In this document: positions 9,908 to 56,832 of the stretch, one piece after another
How the letters are laid out: each line of letters opens with the position of its first letter
Position numbering within the stretch: position 1 is the first letter of the stretch
NCBI GenBank assembly: GCA_013359135.1
Contig: JABWCN010000019.1
Span: 1 to 64,000, forward strand
Reading direction: 5' to 3'
Origin: Pseudobdellovibrionaceae bacterium
Lineage (GTDB): Bacteria; Bdellovibrionota; Bdellovibrionia; Bdellovibrionales; Bdellovibrionaceae
Length of the DNA: 64,000 nt
Translations under genes and position numbers: made by a program
The notes under the pieces: model-generated
Told to the model about the DNA's origin: nothing
Seen by the model: the letters and a program-made list of their open reading frames with translations, nothing else
Database searches by the model: none

Positions 9908-12532
9908 TTAAAACTTATAATTATATCCCACAAAAAATCTTCTGCCATTAATATCATACAAAGATCCATTAACTTCAGCAGCACCCCCTGTACCACCATT
10001 AATATCCGTTGGCGGAACTGAATTAAAAAGATTCTTCACTCCTGCTGTCAATTGACTTCGGGTTCCCATTTTTATAGCTGCAGCTAAATCTATCTCATTA
10101 AGGTCATTGATTTTCTCATTGATTTCACGATTAATTACATTTTGGCCAGGAATAGTTCTTAGCGTAACTGAAAACAAATGACTCTGATTTTTCAAACTTA
10201 AAGTCAGATTATTTCTCCAACCAGGATTACCCCACTCTCCGATAATATCTCGCTTTCCTGCCCCTGGAAAACCTTCTTTCTTAAAAAATAATAAGTATGA
10301 CAATTCATTCTCTAAGCTTAAACTGTGCCCTAGAAAATTAGGAGACAAACCCATATCAATCCCCCAATCAATTCCAGAAATCTCTTCCTCCTGAAGATTC
10401 AAATTAGGAGCTTGAATACTCTCAATAACACCATTACTATCTCTGGTCACTGTCACTCCATACTGAGATGTGTTCACCCCATTGAGCTCTGCCTTTGTAA
10501 GTTCCTCAAACTCTATTCCAACCACATTAGAAATACGTGTGTACCAGGCATCAACAGTCATTGAAAAATTTTTTTGAGACTCATAGACGACTCCTATACC
10601 AGCCGTTACTGCTTTTTCTTCTTTAAGCTTTTTGTTACCTCCTCCGTAGACTAAATATTGGTCTGATTGACATCCGGCAGGATTTTTAGAACAGGCCACT
10701 CGATCAATAAACTCCTGATATCCTTCTGATGACCCCTGATACAGCTCGGAAAGACTTGGTGCCTTAAAGCCTGTACCAATAGAAGCTCTTAATAAAGTAG
10801 TATCACTTAGGTTAAACTTCGAGGAAACTTTAGGATTTAAAGTGTTTCCAAAATCTGAATACATATCAAATCTCGCGGCTAAGTTAATTTCTAACTTCCT
10901 AGTTAAAGGAACATTGAACTCACTAAAAAGTGATTTTACATCCCTGCGACCTTGTTCGTTTGAACCAGCAGAACCCAAGATCATTTTTTGGGCTAATTTA
11001 TCGTCAGTTTTTTGTTTCAGATTTTCTTGCCAAAGACTTACACCAAAAGCGGTGCCAATGTTTTTTTCACTACTTAGTTCTAAGTCCCCAGAAACTACTA
11101 AGTCTGTTGTAAACAAAGTGCTCTCACTTTCCTGAAAAATGGGAGTGATCGCCGAAGAAATATCACCTTTCTGTCCTTCTGCCTTAAAAGGGTCAAAGCT
11201 TCCGTTCTTAATCAAATCATTTAGAATTGTTTTATCTAGGTATCCATTCACGCCTTGATTTTTTCTAAAGATACGACTGTATCCCATAGACACATCATAC
11301 TCCCAAGCGTCTTTAAAAGTTCCCTTAAGCCCAAGCACCGTTGAAAAATTTCTTTCACTATCCTTATCATCACGATTCCCAGCTTCCATGTAACGATAAG
11401 CCACAGCTCTTGCATCTGGAGCTGCAGATGTTCCCGTAGGAGTAGAAATCATTGCCGGGGTTGGTGCATAATTCCACTCGATATCTTTTGTCACGATGAG
11501 ATTGCGATTATAGACCTTCAAACCACTCTCTGTTCTAAAAGTGTAATCCGTTAACAAGTTCATTGTGTTTACTAAAGGTTTTGAAGTCGCTATTTCATTA
11601 TATTTAAAGTAGCATCTTTTGCCATTTCCACTAATATCATCTTTTAAAAGTTCGGGAGGACATTCTTTACTAGGATCAACAACCCAAAGCCCACTATTAT
11701 CACGATAAGCTGCGACGCTGCCAAAGGCAGACAAACCATTTTTAGTTACATCGCGATCTCTTCCCAAAATTTTTTCATCTCTACGAAAATTAAAAACTGT
11801 GAGTAAATCTGATTTCTCATTAGCAAACCCACTCAAGACTGAAGTTGAAAGAGCACTTCCTCCTTTTTTTTCAGCGGAAGCAAACTTTGTATAAATCTCG
11901 GTGTCATTAAAACCTTTTTTAGTCACGATATTTATGACTCCCCCTAAGGCATCTGATCCATACAAAGCAGAAGCGCCATCTCTTAAAATTTCTATGCGTT
12001 CAATGGCACTCTCAGGGATTAGATTCAAATCTACAGCTTCCGTAGAGGGATCCTTTGGTAATCTGTGGCCATTAAGCAATATCAATGTTCTTGAAGACCC
12101 TAACCCCCTAAGTCCAATGTTGGTTGTGGCCGCGGCATTGTTGCCAGCTGCTTCACTCGTAACTCCGAAGGTAGCGGCAGCAGAGTCTCTTAAGCTATCT
12201 GAGACAGAGACATTGGCTGAGTTTGACATACTTTCTTTTTTAATTTGTTTTACAGCTGATGGCCCTTCCGTATTTATTCTTTTGATTCTTGTACCAACAA
12301 CTTCAACTCTCTCAATTTGACTGTCTTTGTCGATTTGATTTTGATTAGCTTCTGTGGCTTGTAATTTTGATACTTGAACCAAAAGACAACTTATGACTGA
12401 AAAAAAAGTTGAAACCACTTTTAACCTTTGTTTAATCTTTTTTGGTCTTACTAAAAGATGATGTGCTTGCATATCCTTCATGGATGTCATGCTAAAATTT
12501 ACAGTTCTGCTACAATTTTTTTTTGAACTCAC
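9908..12532 (-). CDS. TonB-dependent outer membrane receptor
   Basis: An 874-residue receptor. After an N-terminal export segment (about 36-60) comes a plug domain (about 75-210) with the typical features [14 protein letters not shown] and [28 protein letters not shown], followed by a 22-strand-type barrel that ends in the aromatic NYKF. Start: a GTG at 12532 with an excellent upstream AAGGGGG six bases away; internal ATGs at residues 15 and 18 lack such a site. The plug style (the '[14 protein letters not shown]' group) is common in receptors for complex organics as well as siderophores, so the substrate cannot be named. It is divergent from tonB-exbB-exbD, which should energise it. Confidence 0.92.
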
Positions 12533-54716: not shown

Positions 54717-55655
54717 TTAACTAAAAATACTTAAATTTAGAATTTTTGAGAACTCTTTAATGGCCTCACTTACTCGATAACTATGTCCTTTGTCATCTAT
54801 ATTTGGCGAGAACCCAGCAATTCCAAACTTCCCTGGAACCACAGCAAACACAGCCCCACTTACTCCACTCTTGGCCGGTAATCCTACATTAAAAGCCCAC
54901 TCTCCTGCCGAGTCGTACATCCCACAGGTAAACATCAAACTCAAGGTTCTTGAAACTTCTTCTGGTGATAACACTTGCTTGCCAGTTTGTGGCTGTCTCC
55001 CTTTGTTTGCCAGAGTAGCTGCCATCATAGCCAAATCAACAGAGGTCACCAACAAAGAACACTGCCTAAAATAAACATCTAAAGTTTCTTCTATATCTTC
55101 CTCGAGAACATTAAAGTACTTCATTAAATAAGAGATGGCACGATTCCTATGAGCTGTAGCCTTCTCAGAAAGGTAGACTTTCTCGTCAAGCTCCAGAGAT
55201 TTCCCAGCAAGCTCTTGAAAATGACTTTGAATCGCAATAAATTTTTCATCGGTAGAATCTCCAGCAATTAAGCTCGTTGTAGCTATGGCCCCCGAGTTAA
55301 TCATCGGATTAAAAGGTCGATGTGATTTCTCCTCAAGCTCGATAATAGAATTGAAAGCCTCACCCGTCGGCTCTACCCCCACTTTAGAGTGAACAAACGC
55401 TGGACCCTTAGTTTTAAGAGCCAAACTGTACAAAAATGGTTTTGAGGTAGACTGCATAGTAAAATGAACCTCTTTATCTCCGAAAGCAAATACTTCACCT
55501 TGGGTCGTCACCAAAGCTAAAGAAAAGTGATCACGATTTGCCTTAGCAAGCTCTGGAATATAAGTGGCCGGATGACCTTGTTGATTTTTTTGTTGAGATA
55601 CAAAGATTTTTTCTAATTCTTGCTTAAGAAGTGTACTTGAAAATGATTGCCCCAT
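54717..55655 (-). CDS. glsA: Glutaminase
   Basis: About 312 residues with the serine-dependent glutaminase fold: QSTSKPFLYSLAL (catalytic Ser-x-x-Lys), PFNPMINSGAIATTSL, FNVGLPAKSGVSGAVFAVVP and GIAGFSPNIDDKGHS. It hydrolyses glutamine to glutamate and ammonia. The start is set at the second ATG (55655), since AAGGA lies five bases upstream and abuts the first ATG (55661). A terminator and structured leader lie 90-450 bases upstream, which suggests that expression may be controlled by premature termination. Confidence 0.9.
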   Translation of the reverse strand: MGQSFSSTLLKQELEKIFVSQQKNQQGHPATYIPELAKANRDHFSLALVTTQGEVFAFGDKEVHFTMQSTSKPFLYSLALKTKGPAFVHSKVGVEPTGEAFNSIIELEEKSHRPFNPMINSGAIATTSLIAGDSTDEKFIAIQSHFQELAGKSLELDEKVYLSEKATAHRNRAISYLMKYFNVLEEDIEETLDVYFRQCSLLVTSVDLAMMAATLANKGRQPQTGKQVLSPEEVSRTLSLMFTCGMYDSAGEWAFNVGLPAKSGVSGAVFAVVPGKFGIAGFSPNIDDKGHSYRVSEAIKEFSKILNLSIFS

Positions 55656-55750
55656 GCCCATCCTTGAATAAAAAAGCTAAATACTTATACGAACTCAAAG
55701 GTATTATTAAACAGGATAGAATAACAGAGCAAGGAGACTTTACTTAAAAT

Positions 55751-55781
55751 AAAAAAAAGCGGAAGGCTTAAAGCCTTCCGC
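55751..55781 (-). terminator. Strong intrinsic terminator upstream of glutaminase
   Basis: A perfect 11-bp stem GCGGAAGGCTT / AAGCCTTCCGC with a one-base loop as drawn (in practice a 3-5-base loop), followed on the minus strand by eight T. It ends a transcript that comes from about 56100 and lies 96 bases before the glutaminase start. Confidence 0.85.
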
Positions 55782-55856
55782 AGGAGATTTAAATCGCTCG
55801 GGGAACCACCTAACCCTACGAAGTAAACTCTCCAAGAACAAAAAAAGGAGAATGCT

Positions 55857-55922
55857 ATGAAAACAAACACTTTAAAACATTTTTCGAGATTTTACTCCAC
55901 CAAGGAAACTAAACCATCCTAG
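55857..55922 (+). CDS. Possible 21-residue peptide opposite the glutaminase leader
   Basis: ATG at 55857 with a textbook AAGGAG six bases upstream (55845-55850) opens a frame of 21 codons ending in TAG (peptide starts MKTNTLKHFSRFYS). It is basic and hydrophilic. The ribosome site is better than for most genes here, yet the frame lies antisense to the structured region, and no plus-strand promoter is clear. It could be a leader peptide or a chance match. Confidence 0.3.
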   Translation: MKTNTLKHFSRFYSTKETKPS

Positions 55923-56276
55923 CTTAGCCCTCGAAATTCCTTGGCTGGAGCCTAAAGATTTCAACCTACGTTCAACGTTATCTTTACCCCTTTGAAGCTT
56001 CATCCTTGAAGCCCCTTTCATAAGTTAAGATTCACTAGCTTTACAAAGAGGTTAAAACTAAATGTGTTTTTTTGCTTATTTTTTTTAACCTACTGTAATT
56101 ACATAGTTTATAAGTTTCACTTTAAGTTAATAACAATTTGTCTTTTGACCAGTTTCAGACTCAAACTTATGCGTTTATCATTCCTTGGCGTTGCCATCTT
56201 GACTCACTCACAAGGAAGTAATATGGAATATAAACTTATTGAAAGTTCAACAAACCAAAATATTTAAGGAGAAAAA

Positions 56277-56675
56277 ATGAGAAATTTACTAACAGCTATG
56301 GTTGTGGGATTAGCTACTTGTGCTTTGATGAGTTCATGTTCCAGCAAAGCAAAACAAACAGCTACAGAAGCAACAACTCAAACTGCAACTGTTGCTGCTA
56401 CGACAGCAACTCAAGAAAAAAAGACTTTAGAAACTAAAGCCAAAGAAGAACTGAAAAAAACAGTAGCTAACTTAAGCAAAGTCACTTGCACCTCTGGCAA
56501 AGAAACCAGGACTATTGAAGTTAAAGCAAGCGAAGGAAAAGCTTGTGAGGTTCTTTACACTAAAGCTGGTGAGGTTAAATCTCTAGCTTCAGCAGTAACT
56601 GATAAAAATTATTGTCAAACAGTAACCGAAAAAGTTTCCAAAAATTTAGAAGCTGCCGGCTATAAATGCGAATAA
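56277..56675 (+). CDS. Small lipoprotein of unknown function (132 aa)
   Basis: A lipoprotein signal with cleavage before Cys21 (VGLATCALMSSC), a Thr/Ala-rich low-complexity linker (TATEATTQTATVAATTAT), then a lysine/glutamate helix and a small domain with four Cys (VTCTSG, KACEVLY, YCQTV, YKCE) likely forming two disulfides. Not a family I know. It has AAGGAGAAAA just before the ATG. TTGACC-N17-TATGCG at 56145-56173 is a weak promoter candidate. A hairpin terminator follows the gene. Confidence 0.8.
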   Translation: MRNLLTAMVVGLATCALMSSCSSKAKQTATEATTQTATVAATTATQEKKTLETKAKEELKKTVANLSKVTCTSGKETRTIEVKASEGKACEVLYTKAGEVKSLASAVTDKNYCQTVTEKVSKNLEAAGYKCE

Positions 56676-56745: not shown

Positions 56746-56832
56746 GCCCGGGTGGCGAAATTGGCAGACGCACTACCTTGAGGTGGTAGCGCTCGAAAGG
56801 GCGTGCTGGTTCAAGTCCAGTCCCGGGCACCA
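56746..56832 (+). tRNA. tRNA-Leu (anticodon GAG)
   Basis: A full class II tRNA of 87 bases: acceptor GCCCGGG (56746-56752) pairs with CCCGGGC (56822-56828), followed by A and an encoded CCA (56830-56832). The anticodon stem CTACC/GGTAG holds the loop TTGAGGT, with GAG at 56780-56782. The variable arm (CGCTCGAAAGGGCG) is long, as in leucine tRNAs, and the T loop reads TTCAAGT. All arms pair without mismatch. Confidence 0.97.

Follow-up and report, generated by a model that had tools for sequence, protein, structure and literature searches.

To our knowledge, CsrA-soaking RNAs are established only in the gamma-proteobacteria and are believed to be missing from bacteria in which, as in those described here, FliW controls CsrA. 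Transcription of the CsrB/RsmZ-type sRNAs is activated by BarA-UvrY (GacS-GacA). Gamma-proteobacteria lack the fliW gene, whose occurrence is anti-correlated with that of BarA-UvrY (PMC7652899, PMC4682653), and it is a published question if any species uses FliW and sRNAs jointly (PMC7652899). CsrA/RsmE recognise GGA within a hairpin loop, most favourably an ANGGAN hexaloop, and the SELEX consensus is RUACARGGAUGU (PMC7652899). In Campylobacter jejuni, the flaA leader belongs to an mRNA of dual function, which joins FliW in titrating CsrA (PMC4894983). For Geobacter sulfurreducens, RsmA-regulating sRNAs have been predicted by machine learning (PMC5568370), predictions for which no confirmation was found; according to a 2026 paper, no sRNA of the CsrB/C family has been characterised in Geobacter (PMC13407953). 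The open-access papers that were searched describe no Csr-type RNA for Bdellovibrio; an earlier description elsewhere, as in the subscription literature, is possible. This report concerns an RNA of the Bdellovibrionaceae that, judged from sequence, is likely to be a CsrA-sequestering RNA of the Csr/Rsm type, dual-functional where it has kept an open reading frame (ORF) and probably ECF-controlled.

The window (the whole stretch of 64,000 nucleotides from a Pseudobdellovibrionaceae bacterium that was analysed) carries on its minus strand a predicted RNA of about 270 nt (55751-56020), a unit conserved in the family model and in 6/6 genomes of the window genus (g1), including all five others; its probable 5' end lies 6 nt past a promoter-like element. 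The initial annotation had proposed a small RNA of ~350 nt as one of two readings; throughout the Bdellovibrionaceae a terminated RNA unit is indeed conserved, and it covaries strongly. All of the following elements are on the minus strand. The first hairpin, H1 (55994-56015), reads GGGGCUUC-AAGG-AUGAAGCUUC, and its core, CUUC-AAGGAU-GAAG (55998-56011), forms an ANGGAN hexaloop that is putative CsrA site 1. The second, H2 (55899-55945), is a long bulged hairpin whose apical part (CUAAGC-UAGGAUG-GUUUAG, 55909-55927) holds putative CsrA site 2; it is the bulged helix earlier placed at 55895-55950. The loops of H1 and H2 are identical in 6/6 genus members and their stems differ, the stem flanking the H1 loop being variable and the pairing of H2 being kept. 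A U-rich linker (55834-55898), the position of a small ORF in most relatives, leads to H3 (55783-55833), whose invariant loop UAGGUGGUUC is closed by GGG/CCC. The RNA ends in an intrinsic terminator, H4 (55751-55781), of 10 bp and U8 (55751-55758), the letters being GCGGAAGGCT-TTA-AGCCTTCCGC, then T8. A perfect 11-bp stem with eight T had been reported here: the terminator and its T8 stand, and the stem is a palindrome of 11 nt centred on a single base, which gives 10 pairs and a 3-nt loop.

The minus-strand fold of the stretch from 55751 to 56112 beats dinucleotide shuffles (z -3.5), as does that of the 270-nt RNA (z -3.5; 1/200 shuffles equally good), but the plus strand of the same stretch likewise folds better than shuffles (z -4.9), so folding alone fixes neither strand nor function. 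The minus strand was assigned from the U-tract, from the conserved GGA loops, which occur on that strand only, and from the promoter-like element. A plus-strand transcript, which has 0 GGA hairpins, was rejected. No Rfam family matches the window RNA at gathering or relaxed thresholds; 6S, tmRNA, RNase P, SRP RNA and the known riboswitches all gave no match, in agreement with what had been noted from the letters. The best Rfam match, Hrs12, was rejected (24.6 bits versus a cut-off of 70, mostly in the terminator).

Copies across the taxonomic family were found with R1, a covariance model that covers H3 and H4 and was built on the six genus members and genome G036; a refined model, R2, was then searched in 141 genomes of the order. 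At E<=7e-8, R2 identifies 56 copies, all within one taxonomic family, the Bdellovibrionaceae. R2 matches weaker than this are terminators (L217-L220, in other families, have no GGUGGUU loop), except for one copy inside the family (L216, in G013), a true divergent member despite its weak R2 score. The R1 matches L176 and L179-L184, which have neither the GGUGGUU loop nor upstream GGA hairpins, were discarded; outside the genus, BLASTN matches below threshold were for the most part terminators or A/T-rich sequence, with the exception of that in G036. By these searches, the RNA is a family without an Rfam match that is carried by most Bdellovibrionaceae, including Bdellovibrio bacteriovorus HD100, where the copy spans about 2,159,836 (promoter) to 2,160,186 on the plus strand. 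The genome treated as HD100 (G060) has its c-di-GMP-I riboswitch inside the published merRNA coordinates, and the published bd0743 RT primers match the expected gene. Carrier genomes have one copy each, except for two copies in both G016 (L140/L177) and G081 (L141/L178), which represent a duplication or a mixed bin. A minimal copy in G061 (L147) consists of two GGA hairpins followed directly by H3 and the terminator, with no ORF. The usual neighbour is a divergent tRNA-Leu(GAG), found at 56746-56832 (+) in the window and upstream of 42/56 copies; queA lies downstream in 27/56. A predicted lipoprotein gene at 56277-56675 (+) of the window has no Pfam match and adjoins the RNA elsewhere only in G003.

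The glutaminase gene glsA (54717-55661, minus strand; Pfam PF04960, E 2e-115) is the downstream gene on the same strand, as the initial annotation had it, and is a neighbour outside the RNA system. The annotation's alternative suggestion, a termination-controlled glsA leader perhaps responding to glutamine or nitrogen, fails on synteny: only the window copy (1/56) precedes glsA, the stems are not conserved before glsA in relatives (an outcome that the annotation had itself named as refuting), the other genus members have glsA and the RNA on different contigs, and glsA is not detectable in G003, where the RNA is present. A preQ1-type leader of queA/tgt was considered in view of the 27 copies followed by queA and was set aside as the leading interpretation, HD100 and most of its genus having no queA there. 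More generally, termination control of whichever operon lies downstream (glsA here, queA elsewhere) would agree with the shared strand, with the terminator 90 nt before the gene and with the frequency of queA; it is nevertheless highly improbable, given that the downstream genes vary, that neither glsA nor queA follows the RNA in HD100, and that what stays constant beside the RNA is the divergent tRNA-Leu. An informal look showed no conserved sequence that could pair with the terminator stem in its place.

In the 56 sequences, 93% of cells in H3 and H4 are paired and 22/24 pairs show double changes (0/500 shuffles), against about 50% in slid controls for the pairing; the alignment had been adjusted to the structure, a bias of the covariation count in its favour, and a six-sequence count made before fitting agrees, with double changes in 5 pairs. 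The GGUGGUU loop of H3 (window 55800-55812) is invariant in 56/56 copies on a covarying stem and contains no GGA, and its invariance suggests a further function of the RNA.

The 5' parts of the RNAs lie outside the search models, so the enrichment of ANGGA found there is not built in. Hairpin loops in the 5' parts of the 56 RNAs contain ANGGA 86 times, versus 10.7+-3.2 in dinucleotide shuffles (maximum 20, 200 sets), 0 in the reverse complement and 2 in an equal downstream flank. Among hexaloop hairpins with at least 5 pairs, 39/69 have ANGGAN loops where 0.27 are expected; 14 different stems occur, but 24/39 strict hairpins share one stem (AGAGC/GCUCU) and the copies are related, so the ANGGA counts overstate the number of independent events. 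The GGA hairpins of the family include AGAGC-ACGGAU-GCUCU, GCC-ACGGAU-GGC, GGCC-AAGGAA-GGCC and GCUAGGAUGGC, and the H2-type site CTAGGATGG is present in 36/56 copies. These sites fit the published SELEX consensus and the ANGGAN hexaloop (PMC7652899). A pattern joining the promoter to the first GGA hairpin (GAGC-ANGGAN-GCUC) occurs in 36 of the 369 phylum genomes, each of the 36 belonging to the Bdellovibrionaceae, and in 0/303 others (reversed control, 0). In the window copy one loop is a strict ANGGAN and the other is UAGGAUG; with only two good GGA loops, the second after U rather than A, this copy would be weak as a sponge beside CsrB (22 GGA).

The GGA loops might instead serve another factor, in an sRNA that binds some other protein or that base-pairs with its targets through the GGUGGUU loop or the U/C-rich linker. 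The invariance of a loop that lacks GGA would suit such an RNA, as would the complementarity of the genus UCUCCUU linker to Shine-Dalgarno sequences; yet the linker is missing in G003 and the specific enrichment of ANGGAN would be left unexplained, and we regard this alternative as decidedly unlikely. CsrA sequestration, the preferred reading, is consistent with the gene content of these genomes: CsrA is encoded in 40/40 genomes tested, with the RNA-binding residues L4 and R44 and the FliW-contact residue N55 present in the window genome (G000) and in HD100. FliW is encoded in 63/66, the three misses being genomes of 54% and 67% completeness and the very fragmented G074.

Other candidate CsrA-binding sites were seen in the same genomes. 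At L213 (G000:C86:16384-16452), TTAACC-N18-GTC is followed by GAGC-AAGGAU-GCUC, with copies in G001-G005, G008, G018, G020 and G024; in the window genome the start codon of a LuxR-type regulator falls within the hairpin, and the regulator is a candidate target of CsrA. Two RNAs of HD100 are possible CsrA binders, namely APsRNA1 (499375-499581, L189), with 7 GGA in 207 nt and two ANGGA hairpins, and merRNA (L187), with 15 GGA.

The promoter-like element of the window copy, TTAACC-N18-(A/G)TCTTA, is positioned at 56026-56055 on the minus strand, with ATCTTA rather than GTCTTA; the promoter first proposed, at 56107-56136, is not the conserved one. An A-rich tract that may act like an UP element is located at 56063-56090 (minus strand), and the genus relatives have an A-rich stretch as well. 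The conserved element and the A-tracts just upstream place the RNA start probably near 56020. Across the family the element is TTAACC-N18-GTC(T/A)TA, the distance from TTAAC to GTC being exactly 19 nt in 41/56 copies. In 13/17 genomes tested, TTAACC-N18-GTC also stands directly before an ECF sigma gene, which in HD100 is bd0743 (published primers, PMC3464611); this position suggests autoregulation and membership of the RNA in the sigma regulon, and the RNA is probably under the control of the ECF sigma orthologous to HD100 Bd0743. In a bd0743 mutant the flagella are longer and differ in flagellin composition, swimming is slower and groES1EL is derepressed (PMC3464611). A route from the sigma to the flagellar phenotype through the RNA and CsrA is speculative. 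In two genera the promoter-like element also stands before a DksA/TraR-like gene (HD100 3738136-3738165, L204; G007:C1:2609285, L207), and a second TTAACC-N18-GTCTTA occurs in the window at 12421-12450 (+).

Most relatives have a hydrophobic ORF of ~35-45 aa (range 28-60) between H2 and H3, with the pattern M.EL..V..FC..YSGVV..SLW.T and, in most non-g1 copies, an AAGGAG-type Shine-Dalgarno sequence. The small protein has no Pfam or NCBIfam match. The RNA is also mRNA-like in most relatives, so its GGA hairpins could be there to control the translation of its own ORF, a point against a sponge. Read in this way, its main role would be that of a CsrA-controlled message for a small membrane protein, with translation repressed by CsrA on the leader hairpins and the Shine-Dalgarno sequence, and the g1 RNA would be a remnant; CsrA targets often have GGA at just these two places (PMC7652899). 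The ORF is missing, however, from all six g1 genomes (no comparable ORF occurs in the window copy or the other 5), from g4, g8, g12 and g15, and from one g5 and one g6 genome, and the GGA hairpins, H3 and the terminator remain, which favours an RNA function with an optional ORF. In g1 the GGA loops are invariant (6/6) and the surrounding stems have changed, unlike decay after ORF loss. A role mainly as a message is unlikely, though a serious alternative. A coding reading of the g1 RNA (MKGASRMK...) was also rejected, its frames in G004 and G005 breaking after 10 codons.

Under the preferred reading of a CsrA-sequestering RNA, transcription would start at a promoter of the RNA's own, probably with the Bd0743-orthologous ECF sigma, and stop at its own terminator. 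Its 5' half would present GGA loops in the form preferred by CsrA/RsmE on 2-4 short hairpins, and CsrA dimers binding to these hairpins would be drawn away from mRNAs. These genomes also encode FliW, which would antagonise CsrA as a protein alongside the RNA. In most genera the RNA would also encode the hydrophobic small protein, and in the window genus it appears purely non-coding. The fuller proposal is that an undescribed RNA family sequesters CsrA in FliW-containing predators under an ECF sigma, acts with FliW on one CsrA and doubles as the mRNA of a small membrane protein, the ORF having been lost in several lineages; we consider the case for this whole evenly balanced. If true, it would answer the published FliW-plus-sRNA question. 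The HD100 copy (~2,159,836-2,160,186) offers a concrete single-copy test locus in a genetically tractable predator. It also brings to notice a conserved small membrane protein without Pfam or NCBIfam match, and it may link CsrA and the predatory life cycle to an ECF sigma known for its flagellar and chaperone phenotypes (bd0743, PMC3464611).

The attack-phase sRNAs of HD100 and merRNA (PMC3627812) are likewise intergenic and from the same species, but their coordinates differ and the RNA is not among the eight. This absence is a point against the preferred reading, although the list had been restricted to transcripts that were enriched in attack phase and lacked protein homologues (PMC3627812). 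The Geobacter predictions resemble the present case in proposing Csr-type sRNAs in former delta-proteobacteria with a fliW genome; in contrast to those single-genome predictions, the Bdellovibrionaceae RNA is a conserved family with covariation. Like the C. jejuni flaA leader, the RNA is found in CsrA-FliW genomes, has two adjacent GGA hexaloops and may be coding, and sponge and CsrA-controlled message roles may occur together, as for that leader. Unlike flaA, a flagellin mRNA, it is short and stands by itself, is non-coding in several genera, and carries a conserved 3' hairpin and a terminator of its own. The Rfam models of CsrB, CsrC and RsmX/Y/Z gave no match at gathering score and none among weak hits, so the RNA is likened to these families in its working and is not filed as a member. 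With CsrB/CsrC and RsmX/Y/Z of gamma-proteobacteria it shares an independent promoter, an intrinsic terminator, several ANGGAN-loop hairpins and csrA in the genome. In contrast to CsrB/RsmZ, it has fewer sites (2-4) and, in most members, an ORF; it belongs to a different phylum, its genomes carry fliW, and its promoter appears to be of the ECF type rather than the UvrY type.
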